64,000 nt of DNA from Pseudomonas entomophila (GTDB lineage Bacteria > Pseudomonadota > Gammaproteobacteria > Pseudomonadales > Pseudomonadaceae): NCBI RefSeq assembly GCF_023277925.1, contig NZ_CP063832.1, positions 5,191,501-5,255,500 of the forward strand. The letters are read 5' to 3'. The position numbers and the translations under genes were made by a program. Positions 20,189 to 29,333 of this stretch are shown here, piece after piece (the first letter of the stretch is position 1; every line of letters begins with the position of its first letter). The notes below the pieces were generated by a model. That model was given only the letters and a program-made list of their open reading frames with translations. It had not been told where the DNA came from and did no database searches.

Positions 20189-21106
20189 GTGGCCCAGGTC
20201 AAACGTATCCGCCGCAATGTCAGCGGCATCATCCTGCTCGACAAACCATTGGGGTTCACCTCCAACGCCGCCTTGCAGAAGGTCCGCTGGTTGCTCAACG
20301 CGGAAAAGGCCGGCCATACCGGCAGCCTCGACCCGTTGGCCACCGGCGTGCTGCCGCTGTGCTTCGGTGAAGCGACCAAGTTCTCCCAGTACCTGCTCGA
20401 TTCCGACAAGGGCTACGAGACGGTCATGCAGATGGGGCAGACCACCACCACCGCGGACGCCGAGGGTGAAGTCCTGCAGACTCGCGAAGTGACCGTTGGT
20501 CGCGCCGATATCGAGGCCGTGATCCCGCGTTTTCGGGGTGACATCCTGCAGGTACCGCCGATGTACTCGGCGCTCAAGCGTGATGGCCAGCCGCTTTACA
20601 AGCTGGCGCGTGCAGGAGAGGTAGTGGAGCGCGAGGCGCGTTCTGTTACTATTGGCCGCTTGGAGTTGCTTGAGCACGAAGGTACCCGTGCGCGGCTGTC
20701 GGTTGGATGCAGCAAAGGCACCTATATCCGCACGCTGGTCGAGGATATCGGTGAGGCGCTGGGCTGTGGAGCCTACGTCGCCGAACTGCGTCGCACCCAG
20801 GCCGGGCCTTTCGCGCTGGCACAGACCGTGACGCTCGAGGAACTCGAACAGGCTCATTCTGAAGGTGGCAACGAAGCGCTCGATCGCTTCCTGATGCCTT
20901 CCGACAGCGGGCTGCAGGACTGGCCACTGGTGTTGTTGTCCGAGCACAGCGCGTTCTACTGGCTGCATGGCCAGGCGGTACGTGCACCGGACGCACCGCA
21001 GTTTGGCATGGTCCGCGTACAGGATCACAATGGTCGCTTCATCGGTATCGGTGAAGTGAGCGAAGACGGGCGCATTGCGCCGCGTCGGCTGATTCGGTCT
21101 GAATGA
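20189..21106 (+). CDS. truB: tRNA pseudouridine-55 synthase TruB
   Basis: A 305-aa enzyme that makes pseudouridine 55 in the T loop of tRNAs. The catalytic Asp lies in [20 protein letters not shown]. YKAxxR-type and [13 protein letters not shown] (here [14 protein letters not shown]) motifs follow, and the C-terminal PUA-like region ends the protein. It starts with GTG at 20189, 3 bp after rbfA (GGAGTAA overlaps the rbfA stop), implying translational coupling. Confidence 0.95.
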
Positions 21107-21193
21107 CCGAAACCACAGGGCGAGGCTTCGGCCCCGTCCTGCGGAATCGAGGATGGCTGTCAGTAGGCACGGTCATGCCTCTTTTTATTAATA

Positions 21194-21237
21194 CAGGGAT
21201 CTTGTCCCTGGCCTATTGGACCCCGCTCGCGGGATCC
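21194..21237 (+). promoter_or_regulatory. Two hairpins in the rpsO leader (candidate S15 autoregulatory element)
   Basis: CAGGG-ATCTTGT-CCCTG (21194-21210) is followed by GGACCCCG/CGGGATCC (21218-21237), closing 8 nt before the AGGAG ribosome site of rpsO. S15 represses its own mRNA through leader structures in several bacteria. Whether this one does is an inference from position and folding. Confidence 0.5.
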
Positions 21238-21256
21238 GTTTATCAGGAGAAGCCAA

Positions 21257-21526
21257 ATGGCCCTCAGCGTCGAAGAAAAAGCTCAGATCGTTGCCGATTA
21301 CCAGCAAGCCGCCGGCGATACCGGTAGCCCGGAAGTGCAGGTTGCTCTGCTGACCGCCAACATCAACAAGCTGCAAGGCCACTTCAAGGCCAACGAAAAA
21401 GACCACCACTCCCGTCGTGGTCTGATCCGTATGGTCAACCAGCGTCGTAAGCTGCTGGACTACCTGAAGGGCAAGGACACCACTCGTTACAGCGCCCTGA
21501 TCGGTCGCCTGGGCCTGCGTCGCTAA
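21257..21526 (+). CDS. rpsO: 30S ribosomal protein S15
   Basis: An 89-aa four-helix primary binder of the 16S central domain. The family pattern is intact: [21 protein letters not shown], then [23 protein letters not shown]. The ribosome site AGGAG precedes ATG at 21257. It has its own leader and stands between truB and pnp, as in E. coli. The 248-bp gap to pnp contains imperfect GC-rich complementarity that could form the RNase III-cleaved pnp leader known from E. coli, but I could not define a single stem. Confidence 0.97.
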
Positions 21527-21774
21527 TAGCGGCCTGGCCAGTGGTGTTGCATGGTGTGTCGCATTCTTCGGCATCGCTGCCTGTCAGCGTCGCCGTTGGG
21601 CACGCCGCGCGATCTGCGAGGTTGGCAGCCTGGTTCGCCGTGCGGTTCATCCGCCCGGCGCCAGGCTCCCAGCCTCGTGTTGTATCTGGACGGTCAATGG
21701 GGCCGATTCCCCGTTCTGCCCAAGAATTCGCAAGAACCAGTTCCCCCAAGAGCCACTGAAAAAGGTAGGAAACC

Positions 21775-23880
21775 GTGAACCCGGTAATCAAGACATTCCA
21801 GTTCGGTCAATCGACCGTTACGCTCGAAACGGGCCGTATTGCCCGTCAGGCCACCGGCGCTGTGCTGGTCACCGTCGACAACGACGTCACCGTGCTGGTG
21901 ACCGTGGTCGGCGCCAAGCAAGCTGACCCGGGCAAGGGCTTCTTCCCGCTGTCCGTGCACTACCAGGAAAAGACCTACGCCGCTGGCAAGATCCCGGGTG
22001 GTTTCTTCAAGCGTGAAGGCCGTCCTTCCGAAAAAGAAACCCTGACCTCGCGTCTGATCGACCGTCCGATCCGTCCGCTGTTCCCTGAAGGCTTCATGAA
22101 TGAAGTCCAGGTCGTCTGCACCGTCGTTTCGACCAGCAAGAAGACCGATCCGGACATCGCCGCGATGATTGGTACCTCGGCTGCCCTGGCCATCTCGGGC
22201 ATCCCGTTCGAAGGCCCGATCGGCGCCGCCCGTGTTGCCTTCCACGAAAGCACCGGCTACCTGCTGAACCCAACCTATGAGCAACTGGCTGCCTCGAGCC
22301 TGGACATGGTCGTTGCCGGTACTGAGTCCGCCGTGCTGATGGTTGAGTCGGAAGCCCAAGAGCTGACCGAAGACCAGATGCTGGGCGCCGTACTGTTCGC
22401 CCACGACGAATTCCAGGCCGTGATCAAAGCGGTCAAAGAGCTGGCCGCCGAAGCCGCCAAGCCGACCTGGGACTGGAAACCGGCTGATAAGAACTCCGCG
22501 CTGTTCGACGCCATTCGCGCCGAGTTCGGCGAGGCGGTCTCCCAGGGCTACACCATCACCGTCAAGGCCGACCGTTATGCGCGCCTGGGTGAGCTGCGCG
22601 ACCAGGCGGTTGCCAAGTTTTCCGGTGAGGAAGGCCAGCCATCGGCCAGTGAAGTCAAAGACATCTTCGGTGAAATCGAATACCGCACCGTTCGCGAAAA
22701 CATCGTCAACGGCAAGCCACGTATCGACGGCCGCGACACCAAGACCGTACGTCCGCTGAACATTGAAGTCGGCGTTCTGCCCAAGACCCACGGTTCGGCA
22801 CTGTTCACCCGTGGCGAAACTCAGGCCCTGGTCGTCGCGACTCTGGGTACTGCCCGTGACGCCCAGCTGCTGGACACCCTCGAAGGCGAGAAGAAAGACC
22901 CCTTCATGCTGCACTACAATTTCCCGCCGTTCTCGGTGGGCGAGTGTGGCCGCATGGGCGGTGCCGGCCGTCGCGAAATCGGCCACGGCCGTCTGGCCCG
23001 CCGTTCGGTCCAGGCCATGCTGCCGGCCGCCGACGTGTTCCCGTACACCATCCGCGTGGTGTCGGAAATCACCGAATCCAACGGCTCCAGCTCCATGGCT
23101 TCGGTCTGTGGCGCATCCCTGGCCCTGATGGACGCCGGTGTACCGATGAAGGCGCCGGTTGCCGGTATCGCCATGGGCCTGGTCAAGGAAGGTGACAAGT
23201 TCGCCGTGCTGACCGACATCCTGGGTGACGAAGACCACCTGGGCGACATGGACTTCAAGGTAGCCGGTACCGCCAAGGGCGTCACCGCGCTGCAGATGGA
23301 CATCAAGATCAACGGCATCACCGAAGAGATCATGGAAATCGCCCTGGGCCAGGCCCTGGAAGCGCGCCTGAACATCCTCGGCCAGATGAACCAGATCATC
23401 GGCGAGTCGCGTACCGAACTGTCGGCCAACGCCCCGACCATGATCGCGATGAAGATCGACACCGACAAGATCCGTGACGTCATCGGTAAAGGTGGCGCCA
23501 CCATCCGCGCCATCTGCGAAGAAACCAAGGCCTCGATCGATATCGAGGACGACGGTTCGATCAAGATCTTCGGCGAAACCAAGGAAGCCGCGGACGCTGC
23601 CAAGCAACGCATCCTGGGTATTACCGCTGAGGCCGAGATCGGCAAGATCTATGTCGGTAAGGTCGAGCGCATCGTCGACTTCGGCGCCTTCGTCAACATC
23701 CTGCCGGGCAAGGACGGCCTGGTGCACATCTCCATGCTGAGCGATGCTCGCGTCGAGAAAGTCACCGACGTGCTGAAGGAAGGTCAGGAAGTCGAAGTGC
23801 TGGTACTGGACGTGGACAACCGCGGCCGTATCAAGCTGTCGATCAAGGACGTTGCCGCTGCCAAGGCTTCGGGCGTCTGA
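21775..23880 (+). CDS. pnp: Polyribonucleotide nucleotidyltransferase (PNPase)
   Basis: A 701-aa phosphorolytic 3'-5' exoribonuclease and degradosome component. It has two RNase PH-like domains (about 1-215 and 300-540) joined by a helical domain. The active-site region in the second half includes [19 protein letters not shown] ([14 protein letters not shown], about 562-575) and S1 ([18 protein letters not shown], about 622 onward) complete the RNA-binding end. It starts with GTG at 21775 after AAAGGTAGGAAACC. It is the last gene of the nusA operon, with a clear terminator 77 bp downstream. Confidence 0.97.
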
Positions 23881-23956
23881 GCGACTGACGCGTAACAGGA
23901 AAGGGCCCTTCGCAGACTGTGTGAAAACCTAGCAATCTGCCCGGCCCTTTAAGAGA

Positions 23957-23988
23957 ATGCTCCGTATCGGAAGATACGGAGCATTTTT
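23957..23988 (+). terminator. Rho-independent terminator of pnp
   Basis: ATGCTCCGTATC-GGAA-GATACGGAGCAT is a perfect 12-bp stem followed by a T-run. It closes the nusA-pnp operon. Confidence 0.92.
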
Positions 23989-23992
23989 CGTT

Positions 23993-24206
23993 ATGGGCTA
24001 TGTCCAAGGAGAGTCTCGCAGCCAGACCAGTCTGTTCCCGGTCTCGCTGGAGGAACTGATCCTCGAATGGCCAACAATTCCAGGCATGTGAGGAAGCCTC
24101 CATTACCGCGTACGTGCCGCCAAACCGAACCTCCAACCCAGGCGGCGAGGCATTATTCGAGCGCAAGGACTTTATCTACGACGCCGAACAGGATCGGTAC
24201 CAGTGA
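23993..24206 (+). pseudogene. IS1182-family transposase remnant
   Basis: Two non-contiguous pieces of one transposase are fused. The ATG at 23993 gives MGYVQGESRSQTSLFPVS, the family N-terminus (compare M-x-Y-x-Q-G-x4-Q-x-x-L-F-P-V-S). From about 24063 another frame reads SNGQQFQACEEASITAYVP and LFERKDFIYDAEQDRYQ, which matches a segment far downstream in these proteins, and stops at TGA 24204-24206 where the family continues with a CPAG-like motif. Everything in between and beyond is deleted. CAGACTGTGTGAAAAC at about 23911-23926 may be an old terminal end. Assignment rests on remembered family motifs, not a search. Confidence 0.75.
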
Positions 24207-24214
24207 TACGACCT

Positions 24215-24301
24215 CTGTAGGAGCGGCTTTAGCCGCGATCACCCGCGAAGCGGGTGCCAGACACCGTGGTGTTTGCATCGCGGCTAAAGCCGCTCCTACA
24301 G
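24215..24301. repeat. REP palindrome pair (REPIN)
   Basis: CTGTAGGAGCGGCTTTAGCC and GGCTAAAGCCGCTCCTACAG flank the internal palindrome CACCCGCGAAGCGGGTG. It is the same unit as 2365-2451 in reverse orientation and abuts the transposase remnant. Confidence 0.88.
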
Positions 24302-24330
24302 GCGAACGGGCCGAAAGCTGCTTGCGAACA

Positions 24331-24373
24331 TGCATCTTGCACATCGTTTTTTCAGCCGCATTGCAGATTGCAC
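24331..24373 (+). promoter_or_regulatory. Candidate enhancer (UAS): two TGCA-N3-TGCA dyads
   Basis: TGCATCTTGCAC (24331-24342) and TGCAGATTGCAC (24362-24373) are spaced 31 bp start to start (three helical turns). They lie about 80-120 bp upstream of the sigma-54 -24 box, as expected for a bacterial enhancer-binding protein. The regulator is unknown. Confidence 0.5.
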
Positions 24374-24398
24374 GATCCTATGGGCATGTTTAATTTAA

Positions 24399-24411
24399 TA
24401 AGTTATTGATT
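24399..24411 (-). promoter_or_regulatory. Candidate IHF site
   Basis: On the minus strand AATCAATAACTTA matches the IHF consensus WATCAANNNNTTR exactly. It lies in an AT-rich tract between the dyads and the -24 box, the usual DNA-bending position at sigma-54 promoters. Confidence 0.6.
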
Positions 24412-24439
24412 GTTAAGTGATTTTATAAAAATCCAAAGC

Positions 24440-24455
24440 TGGCACAGCGCGTGCA
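24440..24455 (+). promoter_or_regulatory. Candidate sigma-54 (RpoN) promoter
   Basis: TGGCAC-AGCGC-GTGCA matches TGGCAC-N5-TTGCW with one mismatch, and the invariant GG and GC are exactly 10 nt apart. It would start RNA near 24466, about 54 nt before the BON gene ATG. Confidence 0.72.
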
Positions 24456-24519
24456 ACTCCCTTCATACCTGTCGCCAGGATTCACGGCGCAGACCTTTCG
24501 AAAAACAGGAGTGACTCAC

Positions 24520-24870
24520 ATGAAGAAGTTCGCCATTGCTGCCGCTACTGCTACCGCTCTGACCCTGACCCTGGCTAATGCGGCGTTCGCCCAACAGTCC
24601 ACCCAGGCCCCGATGACGCTGGCGGCCGGTGAGGTGACCAAAGCCAAGGAGGCTACCTCCGATACCTGGATCACTACCAAGGTGAAGGCTGACCTGATGA
24701 CCGAGAAAGGCGTGCCAGGCAGTGACATCAAGGTTGAAACCAACAAAGGCGTCGTGTCCCTGTCCTCGGACGTGGCCATTACCGATGCCCAGAAGGACAT
24801 GGCGGTTGCCATCGCCAAGAAGATCAAAGGCGTGCAGGCCGTCTCGGCTGATGGCCTGAAAGCCGAGTAA
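24520..24870 (+). CDS. Periplasmic BON-domain protein (OsmY-like)
   Basis: A 116-aa secreted protein. The signal peptide MKKFAIAAATATALTLTLANAAFA is followed by a single BON domain, with WITTKVKADLMTEKGVPGSDIKVETNKGVVSL as its characteristic first strands and helix and a closing IKGVQAVSADGLKAE. BON proteins bind membranes or envelope surfaces and are often induced by osmotic or envelope stress, as OsmY is. The ATG at 24520 is preceded by CAGGAG at 10-nt spacing. The candidate sigma-54 promoter upstream is unusual for the family, which is commonly sigma-S or AlgU controlled. A terminator follows. Confidence 0.88.
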   Translation: MKKFAIAAATATALTLTLANAAFAQQSTQAPMTLAAGEVTKAKEATSDTWITTKVKADLMTEKGVPGSDIKVETNKGVVSLSSDVAITDAQKDMAVAIAKKIKGVQAVSADGLKAE

Positions 24871-24912
24871 GGGATGTCCCGTCGGCCAAAGGGACTTGGC
24901 CACCTTTCAAGC

Positions 24913-24940
24913 AAAAGCCCCGGCATGTGCCGGGGCTTTT
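24913..24940. terminator. Bidirectional terminator, BON gene / permease
   Basis: AAAAGCCCCGGC-ATGT-GCCGGGGCTTTT is a perfect stem with A- and T-runs on each side, between convergent genes ending at 24870 and 24955. Confidence 0.92.
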
Positions 24941-24954
24941 CATTGGTCGCCTGC

Positions 24955-26472
24955 TCAGTGCTCGGTGGCCGTTTCCCGTCGCCGGACAGGCTCGCCTTCG
25001 CTGTTCACTTCCATCACCGGGACTTCGTTGCCATCGGCGTCGAACAGCTTGCCATCCTTGAAGTAGTCGCCATCGCGCAGCGCGGAAATGTCCGCGTAGT
25101 TGATGGTGCGCTCATAGGCGGCGGCGAATACCGACTGCTGGTCCGAGTTGCCGGTGGTGAAGTGGTTGAAGATCAGGTTCAGCAGGATGGCCATGATCGC
25201 CGCGGAGCTGATGCCCGAGTGGAAGATGGTTTCGAACCAGTTCGGGAAGTTGTGGTAGAAGGTCGGCGCCGCGATCGGGATCATGCCGAAGCCCAGCGAG
25301 GCGGCAACGATGATCAGGTTGACGTTGTTCTTGTAGCTGACCTTGGACAAGGTGCGGATGCCGCTGGCGGCCACGGTGCCGAACAGCACGATGCCGGCGC
25401 CGCCCAGCACGGGGGTTGGTACCGCGGCGATGACCCGGCCCATTACCGGTAACAGGCCCAGCACTACCAGGATCACGCCACCGGTGGCCACCACGTAGCG
25501 GCTCTTCACGCCGGTCACGGCCACCAGGCCGACGTTCTGGGCGAACGCGCTTTGAGTGAACGAACCGAAGATCGGCGCCAGTATGCTCGACGCCATGTCG
25601 GCGCGCAGGCCATTGCCCAGGCGCTTGGAGTCGACTTTGGTGTCGATGATCTCGCCGACCGCGAGGATGTCCGCGGAGGTTTCCACCAGGGTCACCATGA
25701 TCACGATGCACATCGACAGGATCGCGGCGATGTGGAACGTCGGCATACCGAAATGGAACGGGCTGGGGAAGGCAAACATCGGGCCTTCGCTGACCTTGCT
25801 GAAGTCGGTCATGCCCAATGCCCAGGCGATCAGGGTACCGACCACCATCGCCAGCAGGATCGACAGGCGCGAGATGGTCGCGTTGCCCAGCTTGCTCAGC
25901 AGCAGGACGATGGCGAAGGTCAATGCCGCCAGGCCAATGTTGGCCACGCTGCCGAACTCGGGCGAGGCGCTGTTGCCACCCATCACCCAGCGCGCGGCCA
26001 CGGGCATGAGGGTCAGGCCGATGGTGGTGATGACGATACCGGTCACCAGGGGCGGGAAGAACTTGGTGATGCGCGAGAACACGGGTGTGATCAGAAAACC
26101 GATCAATGACGCCGCCATGACCGCGCCAAGTACGCCTTGCAGCCCGCCGCCGCCCTCACTGCTGATGATGGCGCCCATGGTTGCCACGCCAGCGAACGAC
26201 ACCCCCTGCACCAGCGGTAGCTGGCAGCCGAAGAACGGCAGGCCAAGGGTTTGCAGCAATGTCGCCAGGCCACCCGCGAACAGCGAGGCGGCGATCAGCA
26301 GGCCGATCTCCGCGGGGCCCAGGCCGGCAGCCTGGCCCAGGATCAGCGGGACGGCGACGATCCCTCCGTACATGGTCAGGACATGTTGCAGCCCGTAGGC
26401 CAGGTTGGCGCCGAGGCCGAGATTTTCGTCCTCGGGGCGCGGGGCGGGAGACGTGCTGGGGGACGTGGTCAT
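24955..26472 (-). CDS. NCS2-family nucleobase (xanthine/uric acid type) permease
   Basis: A 505-aa inner-membrane proton symporter with about 14 hydrophobic segments. The NCS2 signature is visible in FTQSAFAQNVGLVAVTGVKSR, where QN-x-G-x4-T is the substrate-site loop typical of the xanthine/uric acid branch. The preceding segment MVTLVETSADILAVGE contains the conserved acidic residue of TM8. The C-terminus is a long hydrophilic tail. The start MTTSPSTSPAPRPEDENLG (ATG at 26470-26472) removes an unlikely cysteine-rich extension. The actual substrate is not determined by sequence. A TTGTATACAA palindrome lies 70 bp upstream. Confidence 0.9.
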   Translation of the reverse strand: MTTSPSTSPAPRPEDENLGLGANLAYGLQHVLTMYGGIVAVPLILGQAAGLGPAEIGLLIAASLFAGGLATLLQTLGLPFFGCQLPLVQGVSFAGVATMGAIISSEGGGGLQGVLGAVMAASLIGFLITPVFSRITKFFPPLVTGIVITTIGLTLMPVAARWVMGGNSASPEFGSVANIGLAALTFAIVLLLSKLGNATISRLSILLAMVVGTLIAWALGMTDFSKVSEGPMFAFPSPFHFGMPTFHIAAILSMCIVIMVTLVETSADILAVGEIIDTKVDSKRLGNGLRADMASSILAPIFGSFTQSAFAQNVGLVAVTGVKSRYVVATGGVILVVLGLLPVMGRVIAAVPTPVLGGAGIVLFGTVAASGIRTLSKVSYKNNVNLIIVAASLGFGMIPIAAPTFYHNFPNWFETIFHSGISSAAIMAILLNLIFNHFTTGNSDQQSVFAAAYERTINYADISALRDGDYFKDGKLFDADGNEVPVMEVNSEGEPVRRRETATEH

Positions 26473-26541
26473 TGGAGCAGGCTCTCTGTTTATTGTTGTG
26501 CCGCTACTGTAGACAAGTCTTACAAAACATTGCCACAAGAA

Positions 26542-26551
26542 TTGTATACAA
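26542..26551. promoter_or_regulatory. Palindrome TTGTATACAA upstream of the permease
   Basis: A perfect 10-bp palindrome within an AT-rich stretch about 70 bp upstream of the permease start. Its form resembles GntR-family operators. Binding is inferred. Confidence 0.4.
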
Positions 26552-26733
26552 AGTTTTGATCGTAGCGTCGGCATAGGTGCTTCCAGGGTGCGAAAAACCT
26601 GGATGCACGTTGCGTTCCAACATGCACGGAGCTGTTCTAGAGGGGTGTGTACAAACGTGTGCGGCGGGGGATGGAAGCTGTCTGGCTGGACAGGAAAGCT
26701 GTCACAGCCAGATTGTTAGCAGGCTAAGAGATA

Positions 26734-27099
26734 TCAATCTTCGATGAGTTCGCGCAGCTCGCGCATCATTTCAGGGCGGTCTGCCAGGTTCAGTTCCACA
26801 AGACGGTGCAGGTGAGTGGCCGAGTTGATATCGATCTTGAGGCAAATGAAGCCAAGCTTGGTCGCTTCTTCGTGACGCAGTTCGATCAGCATTTCCAGCG
26901 CGACATCGGGTGCCAGATGGATGATTGCTTCGAAATCCTGGGATAGGTCGGGCTCCCAAGGATCCGGACGCTCTATGAGCAGCCCCTTGAGCGACAGGTC
27001 GAGAAGCTTCGCAGGCCAGCGGCGTTCTCCCTGGCGCAGCTCGGCGGGGGCATCGAAGGCGATGCGTTGGAAACGGCGGCGTTCGTCGTGATCGCTCAT
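26734..27099 (-). CDS. PilZ-domain protein (probable c-di-GMP receptor)
   Basis: A 121-aa single PilZ domain. The c-di-GMP binding signature is present: an N-terminal RRRFQR (RxxxR) and, about 28 residues on, DLSLKGLL matching D/N-x-S-x-x-G. This favours true ligand binding rather than a degenerate PilZ. No catalytic or membrane segment is attached, so it probably acts as an adaptor. The 261-bp gap upstream of the permease holds the permease leader and a weak hairpin near 26682-26712. The target is unknown. Confidence 0.88.
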   Translation of the reverse strand: MSDHDERRRFQRIAFDAPAELRQGERRWPAKLLDLSLKGLLIERPDPWEPDLSQDFEAIIHLAPDVALEMLIELRHEEATKLGFICLKIDINSATHLHRLVELNLADRPEMMRELRELIED

Positions 27100-27266
27100 G
27101 GGAAAGGCCCTCGGGGGTTCAACCTGACTATAGTTAATTGTGGCGTTTTATCAGGTACCGCAATCTGGCCGCAGAGGCTCTAGACCAAAGCAAGTGTGGC
27201 AATGCGCATTGACTCGCCCTAGACTCGATGGGCGGTCTTTTCCAATCCACCAGCTGGAAGTAAACC

Positions 27267-29333
27267 ATGAACAACAATAATAGCCTGCTACGCCACATTC
27301 CGTGGCTGGCGCTGGCAGTCATAGGGGCCTGCGCGCTGGGTGTGGTCGCCCTGCGTCGCGGTGAGGCAATCAACGCCTTGTGGATCGTGGTCGCGGCAGT
27401 GGCCATCTACCTGGTTGCCTACCGTTACTACAGCCTGTTCATCGCCACCAAGGTGATGCAGCTCGATCCTCGCCGGGCCACGCCCGCGGTACTCAACAAT
27501 GATGGCCTGGACTACGTCCCGACCAACAAGCACATCCTCTTCGGCCATCACTTTGCCGCCATTGCTGGTGCCGGCCCGCTTGTGGGCCCGGTGCTCGCGG
27601 CGCAGATGGGCTACCTGCCCGGCACATTGTGGCTGATCGCCGGCGTGGTGCTGGCTGGCGCGGTGCAGGACTTCATGGTCCTGTTCCTGTCCACCCGCCG
27701 CAACGGCCGGTCGCTGGGCGACATGGTCCGTGAGGAGATGGGCCGTATCCCCGGCACCATCGCCCTGTTCGGCTGCTTCCTGATCATGATCATCATCCTC
27801 GCGGTGCTGGCGCTTATCGTGGTCAAGGCCCTGGCCGAGAGCCCATGGGGGATGTTCACGGTGATGGCGACCATCCCGATCGCGATGTTCATGGGTATCT
27901 ACATGCGCTACATCCGTCCGGGGCGCATCGGCGAGATCTCGGTCGTCGGTGTGGTCCTGCTGCTGCTGTCGATCTGGCTGGGGGGCCAGATCGCCGCGGA
28001 TCCGGTGTGGGGCCCGGCATTCACCTTCACCGGTGTGCAGATCACCTGGATGCTCGTGGGCTACGGCTTCGTCGCCGCCGTGTTGCCGGTGTGGCTGGTG
28101 CTGGCGCCGCGTGACTACCTGTCGACCTTCCTCAAGATTGGCACCATCGTCGGCCTGGCGATCGGCATCCTGGTCATCGCGCCCGAGCTTAAAATGCCGG
28201 CGCTGACACAGTTCACCGATGGCACGGGCCCGGTATGGAAGGGCACCCTGTTCCCGTTCCTGTTCATCACCATCGCCTGTGGTGCGGTGTCCGGCTTCCA
28301 TGCGCTGATCTCTTCGGGCACCACGCCCAAACTGCTGGATAACGAAGCCAACGCCCGCTACATCGGCTACGGCGGCATGCTGATGGAGTCGTTCGTCGCC
28401 ATCATGGCCATGGTCGCCGCCTCGGTGATCGAGCCGGGCGTGTACTTCGCCATGAACAGCCCGGCCGCAGTGGTCGGTGCCGACGTCGCGTCGGTGGCGC
28501 AGACGGTCAGCAGTTGGGGCTTCATGATCACCCCCGAGCAGCTCGAGGCCACCGCCCGTGACATCGGCGAGCACACCATCCTGGCCCGTGCCGGTGGTGC
28601 GCCGACGCTGGCGGTGGGTATCGCGCAGATCCTGCACCAGGTATTGCCGGGTGAGAACACCATGGCGTTCTGGTACCACTTCGCGATTCTGTTCGAGGCG
28701 CTGTTCATCCTCACCGCGGTGGACGCGGGTACCCGTGCCGGTCGCTTCATGTTGCAGGACCTGCTGGGCAGCTTTGTGCCGGCCCTGAAACGCACCGAGT
28801 CGTGGACCGCCAACCTGATCGGCACCGCGGGTTGCGTGGCGCTGTGGGGCTACCTGCTGTACCAGGGCGTGATCGACCCGCTGGGCGGCATCAATACGCT
28901 CTGGCCGCTGTTCGGCATCTCCAACCAGATGCTCGCCGGTATCGCCCTGATGCTCGGCACCGTGGTGCTGATCAAGATGAAGCGCCAGCGCTATGTCTGG
29001 GTCACCCTGTTGCCAGCCGTGTGGCTGCTGATCTGTACCACCACCGCAGGCCTGATCAAGCTGTTCGATCCGAACCCGGCCGTAGGCTTCCTGGCCCTGG
29101 CCAAGAAGTACAGCACCGCGCTGGACGCCGGCCAGGTACTGGCCCCGGCCAAGGATATCGGGCAGATGCAGCACGTGATCTTCAACGCCTACACCAACGC
29201 CGGCTTGACCGTGCTGTTCCTGATGGTGGTGTTCAGCGTGCTGTTCTTCGCCGTCAAGGTCGGCCTGGCCGCTCTGGGCCGCAAGGAGCGCACCGACAAG
29301 GAAACTCCGTTCCAGGCCCTGCCTGACGCTTGA
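27267..29333 (+). CDS. cstA: Carbon starvation protein A family transporter (CstA/BtsT)
   Basis: A 688-aa polytopic membrane protein with about 18 hydrophobic segments, taking up peptides or pyruvate in characterised relatives. Conserved family sequences include [27 protein letters not shown] residues at about 96-118, [14 protein letters not shown] and [18 protein letters not shown]. It is followed 13 bp later by a YjiX-family gene and then yjiA, the same trio as E. coli btsT-yjiX-yjiA, which favours the pyruvate/BtsT function. The ATG at 27267 is preceded by GGAAGTAAACC. Confidence 0.93.

Follow-up and report, generated by a model that had tools for sequence, protein, structure and literature searches.

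Comparative sequence analysis identifies the control region of a BON-domain gene in Pseudomonas entomophila, with a probability that we put at roughly 0.88, as an RpoN promoter served by a two-site AlgB enhancer, with a site for bending by IHF in between. The same estimate covers, jointly with this reading, a probable regulon in the Pseudomonadaceae whose products are BON, DUF3509, DUF2383, hemerythrin and small membrane proteins and which takes in the operon divergent from algB. From these comparisons we infer AlgB binding, the need for RpoN and for IHF, the activating direction and the signal. The window referred to below is the whole stretch of 64,000 nt that was analysed, which spans positions 5191501-5255500 of a genome of 5.76 Mb in one contig, and coordinates are those of the window except where genome positions are given.

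Organization of the BON control region

The gene order in this part of the window is pnp, a 25-nt inverted repeat, the control region, the BON gene and a convergent Xan_ur permease gene. According to the window ORF list the pnp ORF ends at 23880, before the control region. The inverted repeat that follows pnp is perfect (24215-24239 and 24277-24301) and has the look of a REP-type element.

The original prediction described here a TGGCAC-N5-GTGCA box with its GG and GC 10 nt apart, an exact IHF consensus and two TGCA-N3-TGCA dyads spaced by 31 bp, in the order of an RpoN promoter ahead of a BON-domain gene. All of these elements are present in that order and at agreeing coordinates, and the observation is correct and stronger than it had been stated. 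The distal candidate activator dyad, TGCATCTTGCA, occupies 24331-24341 (+ strand), with its T at -109 from the T of the box and its centre about -130 from the predicted transcript start. The proximal candidate dyad, TGCAGATTGCA, lies 31 bp from it at 24362-24372 (+), with its T at -78 and its centre at about -99. Between these operators and the promoter is an IHF-type site, TAAGTTATTGATT (24399-24411, + coordinates, reading on the minus strand), that matches WATCAANNNNTTR, which we take to be the IHF consensus. The sigma-54 -24/-12 box, TGGCACAGCGCGTGCA (24440-24455, +), has its GG and GC in a TGGCAY-N7-GC context and would place the transcript start near 24466. Measured from this predicted start, dyad centres at about -99 and -130 with an IHF site between and a -24/-12 box are the geometry of an NtrC-type promoter.

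A chance origin of the elements was considered from their counts in the window. TGCA-N3-TGCA occurs exactly twice (24331 and 24362) against 1.86 expected in 64 kb, an unremarkable number, and the box pattern TGGCAY-N7-GCA twice against 2.33; YAANNNNTTGATW, the IHF consensus in reverse orientation, is found three times, one of them at 24399-24411, against 0.30 expected. Since the dyad and box counts are each ordinary in 64 kb, neither was ever used singly as evidence, and the excess over chance lies in the combination of elements and in their conservation.

The BON gene itself (24520-24870, +) is an ORF for a 116-aa protein with a single BON domain (Pfam BON, E 2.8e-13) and, by eye, a signal peptide. 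The NCBIfam OsmY model matches this one-BON protein at E 2.2e-13 with 50.3 bits, below the cut-off of 174 for OsmY equivalogs. It is preceded by CAGGAG (24506-24511, +), a probable ribosome-binding site that is invariant in 43/43 aligned leaders chosen from the 81 loci described below. A predicted leader hairpin (24469-24492, +) begins about 3 nt past the predicted transcript start. Hairpin folding reaches z < -1 in 77 of the 81 leaders, with a mean z of -2.0 against mononucleotide shuffles, and the stem letters vary on both sides among relatives, as judged by eye in an alignment of 43 leaders (A1). The stem variants, CTGCTG..CAGCAG, CTGCCG..CGGCAG and longer forms, look compensating between species. 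The 5' hairpin of the BON mRNA is perhaps an mRNA stabiliser. The sole Rfam match over 21000-27500 is the S15 leader (RF00114) at 21216-21313, in front of rpsO.

Conservation at BON loci and the question of AlgU control

Comparison across relatives, one of the checks suggested with the original prediction, was run on 81 loci, namely the window and the best 80 of 427 BON relatives (78 titled Pseudomonas and 2 Pantoea sp.), a set in which close relatives are over-represented and some entries are near-duplicates. The box, as TGGCA[CT]-N7-GC, is kept some 80 nt before the start codon in 81/81 loci, and so are both dyads in the form NGCA-N3-TGCA, with the first base free. Relative to the box the distal dyad is at -107 to -109 and the proximal one at -76 to -78 in all 81 loci, and the two are 31 bp apart in 79 loci and 32 bp apart in the other 2. 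In the strict form TGCA-N3-TGCA the proximal dyad is found in 77/81 loci and the distal one in 48/81, where CGCA is frequent. An IHF-like site is present in 60/81 loci under a strict definition and in 78/81 under a relaxed one, and the sequence between the elements is variable among relatives. The reading of this region as an RpoN promoter with an IHF site and an activator operator is thereby supported.

BON orthologues were also sought in 29 chosen genomes from 16 genera of the family, and 22 had one at E <= 1e-14. Among the 19 AlgB-bearing genomes with an orthologue, 15 combine a box of the TGG[CT] type with a pair of dyads that match GCA-N3-TGC or better, again at -107 to -109 and -76 to -78. 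In genus g6 one of the two AlgB-bearing genomes has the dyads and a box of the CGG type, and in the other no box was found; the two AlgB-bearing genomes examined in genus g17 (G134 and G159) lack a sigma-54 box at BON and show an AlgU-like pattern there. The sigma-54/dyad promoter is absent at BON in 3/3 AlgB-less genomes with an orthologue, and all three match a loose AlgU-like pattern; in G148 the match stands behind pnp, at the same pnp-BON locus as in the window. The AlgU-like pattern without the sigma-54 promoter is found, then, at five orthologues: L225 (G148), L226 (G149) and L289 (G135), which are AlgB-less, and L285 (G159) and L288 (G134), which are AlgB-bearing. The pattern used, GAAC[TA]-N15-18-TC, was taken from what we assume to be the AlgU consensus. 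It was scanned without a statistic and is loose enough to match the AlgB-bearing L272 as well, where it overlaps a dyad of an intact sigma-54 promoter, so that its matches are weak evidence.

These five loci speak for another reading, in which the BON gene belongs to the usual envelope-stress genes controlled by AlgU or RpoS and the sigma-54-like box is incidental or a minor second promoter. The expression of PA4739, the assumed orthologue, points the same way, since a passage of one report describes it as up with beta-lactams in PAO1 but down in LESB58 and LESlike1 (PMC10654054). Against it stand the retention of box, dyads and spacing in 81/81 loci and the looseness of the AlgU pattern, which in L272 falls over a dyad; we regard control by AlgU or RpoS, with an incidental or minor sigma-54 box, as very improbable. 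A switch between sigma-54 and AlgU-type promoters at BON, from one lineage to another, is possible.

Dyad and box combinations across genomes

A genome-wide scan for dyads upstream of -24/-12 boxes, likewise suggested at the outset, yielded a putative regulon and a candidate regulator. The combination dyad-N{40,70}-box occurs at two places in the 5.76-Mb genome itself and at none in a reversed control; the second place precedes a DUF3509 gene and has, by eye, three dyads and an IHF-like site. Over the genus the combination is found in 116/119 genomes, at 1 to 7 places each, against 13 matches in 12/119 genomes in the reversed control. Among 51 promoter records drawn from several target classes, a few of them covering the same place twice, a relaxed IHF site is present in 35, at -40/-41 in 34 of the 35, compared with 2% in mononucleotide shuffles.

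Conservation alone cannot separate activation from repression, and AlgB is described in part of one study as repressing group behaviours in P. aeruginosa (PMC6932827), which would fit conserved dyads that serve as a repressor operator or as an architectural feature unrelated to promoter activation. The offset between the elements speaks against this: in 130 printed genus sites, a subset of the existing ones in which two share one box, the dyad lies 75-78 nt from the sigma-54 box in 115, though 51-81 nt was allowed, and an IHF-type site stands between. An offset of 75-78 nt is a usual upstream position for enhancer-binding proteins. We consider a repressor or architectural role the least probable of all the explanations weighed here and favour dyads that act as an enhancer.

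The genes behind 29 of the loci (L088-L116), as assigned by eye, encode DUF3509-like proteins (7), BON proteins (5), a membrane protein of about 300 aa (5), a small ORF of about 75 aa (4), triple BON proteins (2), a hemerythrin (1) and a DUF2383 protein (1), with 4 unclear. Pfam domains were run for one or two examples of each class, and no Pfam family was found for the membrane protein of L092 or for the small ORFs of L093 and of L160, which comes from another algB locus, or for the 96-aa ORF of the window's own genome. The membrane protein, which contains SGVSWGAIFAGAAAAAALS, is a recurrent target (L092, L098, L103, L105 and L116). Small uncharacterised proteins that look single-span lie behind the same type of promoter in L295 (5109-5396, +), L093, L095, L106 and L111, and several of these end in RWVF, HWVF, RLVF or RLIF.

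AlgB as the candidate activator

The genome that holds the window has 20 strong sigma-54 activator genes. The candidate AlgB among them, L137 (genome positions 4480267-4481610), has REC (PF00072), sigma-54 AAA+ (PF00158) and HTH_8 (PF02954) domains and matches a GAFTGA-type pattern, as an NtrC-type response regulator does; many sources give the name AlgB to its relatives, and the gene after it encodes a kinase with a Pfam KinB_sensor domain (2.9e-35). Upstream of algB in L137 there is, by eye, a repeat that resembles the inverted repeat at 24215-24301 of the window.

Physical linkage connects this gene with the sites. The algB-kinB locus of the same genome has a divergent promoter of the same type, with dyads at -109 and -85 and the box TGGCACGCCGGCTGC, behind which lie the 96-aa ORF and a DUF1328 ORF. 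In 6 of 8 fetched stretches, which had been chosen for closely spaced sites or unusual targets, a GAFTGA response regulator gene (algB) adjoins the site. Of 40 further algB loci chosen over the genus, 37 have within 2.9 kb a box preceded at 55-130 nt by a relaxed GCA-N3-TGC dyad, as against 2/40 on the opposite strand and 0.5/40 in shuffles of two-base blocks. The uracil/xanthine permease gene beside BON in the window (24958-26472, minus strand) has a look-alike beside kinB in two other genomes (L119 and L122), which hints at an old algB-kinB-BON-permease neighbourhood.

As a further target algD was considered and set aside. In this genome an algD-like gene was assigned by eye within PF03721, and the 2.2 kb searched there, which end just inside the gene and lie upstream of it for about 2.08 kb, contain no TGCA-N3-TGCA and only one relaxed dyad, near the far end.

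The distribution of AlgB follows that of the sites. With thresholds for AlgB absence of 1e-120 in the genus and 1e-100 in the family, and with a few genomes being drafts less than 90% complete, AlgB is present in 116/119 genus genomes, and the three without it (G079, G093 and G118) are exactly the three without sites. Sites thus occur in 116/116 AlgB-bearing and 0/3 AlgB-less genus genomes, for which the chance is 1/C(119,3) = 3.7e-6. Across 148 family genomes of 19 genera, both AlgB and site are found in 106, AlgB only in 3 (G152, G234 and G255, which lack strict sites), a site only in 3 (G140, G150 and G226, one site each) and neither in 36, with a Fisher p of ~2e-27 that overstates independence because the genomes are related. 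The 39 AlgB-less family genomes comprise 20 named directly and 19 obtained by subtraction. In the six genera with both AlgB-plus and AlgB-minus members, 9/9 AlgB-minus genomes have no site. A close BON orthologue is likewise absent in the four AlgB-minus genomes of the window's own genus that were checked (best identity 31-42%), so the pattern is one of co-loss of regulator and target. This co-loss, the exceptions in both directions among the family genomes, the departures of g6 and g17 at the BON promoter, the retention of the strict distal dyad in only 48/81 loci and the algD result weigh against the AlgB reading.

A genuine sigma-54/IHF promoter whose dyads are bound by another enhancer-binding protein of AlgB-like distribution is an alternative, and in its favour three activators other than AlgB (L138, L140 and L144) also have no reciprocal-best orthologue in the site-less G079, where the best match to AlgB has 40% identity and is not reciprocal. 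The remaining 16/20 activators have reciprocal-best orthologues there (54-93% identity) and are disfavoured because these are present in a site-less genome. Beyond this elimination, the site is physically linked to algB in its own genome and in 37/40 others, and co-occurrence over 148 genomes and 19 genera singles out AlgB, which alone among the activators was entered in the 119- and 148-genome tests. We judge another activator to be unlikely, though less so than the explanations by AlgU or RpoS and by repression, and retain AlgB as the probable activator.

Discussion

In the circuit that we propose, KinB would set the state of AlgB, the NtrC-type response regulator paired with it, and AlgB dimers would occupy both TGCA-N3-TGCA dyads, which lie some 99 and 130 bp ahead of the predicted start and, being separated by three helical turns, on the same face of the DNA. 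IHF would bend the AT-rich spacer, the AAA+ ring of AlgB would meet the sigma-54 holoenzyme at TGGCAC-N5-GTGCA and open the promoter, and the resulting transcript, from near 24466 and with a 5' hairpin, would encode the BON protein.

OsmY-type BON proteins are normally under the control of sigma-S or AlgU. In contrast to them, the BON promoter is of the sigma-54 type in most AlgB-bearing relatives examined, which supports that part of the original prediction. The implied replacement of AlgU does not necessarily follow, since part of a recent review reports that AlgU activates algB (PMC13001231), and the BON gene may sit downstream of AlgU through a relay AlgU-AlgB-RpoN. The prediction of a new control circuit held in part as well: the sigma-54/dyad reading has comparative support, but the activator need not be a new one and the evidence favours AlgB. 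Our preferred reading is an AlgB-RpoN-IHF regulon, which combines a switch of a familiar kind and a known regulator with an operator and a target set that were not found described in the searchable literature.

In the literature searched we found neither an AlgB operator nor control of the BON gene by AlgB described, and an AlgB motif may exist in SELEX or ChIP-seq tables outside that search. We take PP_4707 of P. putida to be the orthologue of the window BON gene. One report lists this gene as overexpressed in solid medium and annotates it 'water subsaturation, unpublished' (PMC6922523). SELEX-based predictions for AlgB are implied by another source, whose main-text passages contain no AlgB motif letters (PMC8041468), and ChIP-seq of AlgB/KinB in P. 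syringae (Xie 2022) is cited in a passage of a further paper (PMC11957545).

Work on AlgB has centred on its part in regulating alginate and virulence, and a 2026 review still calls the KinB signal unknown (PMC13001231). A clean operator, few direct RpoN-type targets and a promoter of reporter size would give KinB-AlgB a defined output, with which one could test directly what KinB senses, which state of AlgB is active and how AlgB action divides into RpoN-dependent and RpoN-independent parts. We lean slightly towards a broader view, in which the family-wide and perhaps ancestral job of KinB-AlgB would be the direct RpoN/IHF activation of an envelope and osmotic stress regulon through paired TGCA-N3-TGCA dyads three turns apart, not alginate, as a module gained and lost with AlgB and with the BON promoter being AlgU-type in some lineages. 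The results also hint that, for one envelope gene, evolution has chosen between control by sigma-54 and AlgU-like control.

Compared with known systems, the window protein shares the BON domain with OsmY-type proteins, and its similarity to OsmY is weak. The candidate activator matches the KinB-AlgB system of P. aeruginosa (PA5484/PA5483) in its domains, in the names given by sources and in the KinB-sensor gene next to it. A 2012 study by Damron reportedly dealt with the KinB/RpoN regulon. AlgB is stated, in part of one study, to carry the GAFTGA motif for RpoN (PMC6932827). In passages of two other papers AlgB binds the algD promoter of P. aeruginosa (PMC9431422, PMC10418997), whereas the algD-like gene of the present genome has no such dyad upstream. 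While AlgB is best known for algD, the targets predicted here are envelope and osmotic-type proteins reached through a defined pair of dyads. NtrC-type sigma-54 promoters with IHF include glnHp2 and the nif promoters. Like these, the BON promoter combines a -24/-12 box with paired operators, some 100 and 130 bp before the start, and an IHF site between operators and box; unlike NtrC systems, its operator is TGCA-N3-TGCA, which differs from the NtrC site, and its target class appears to be envelope stress.
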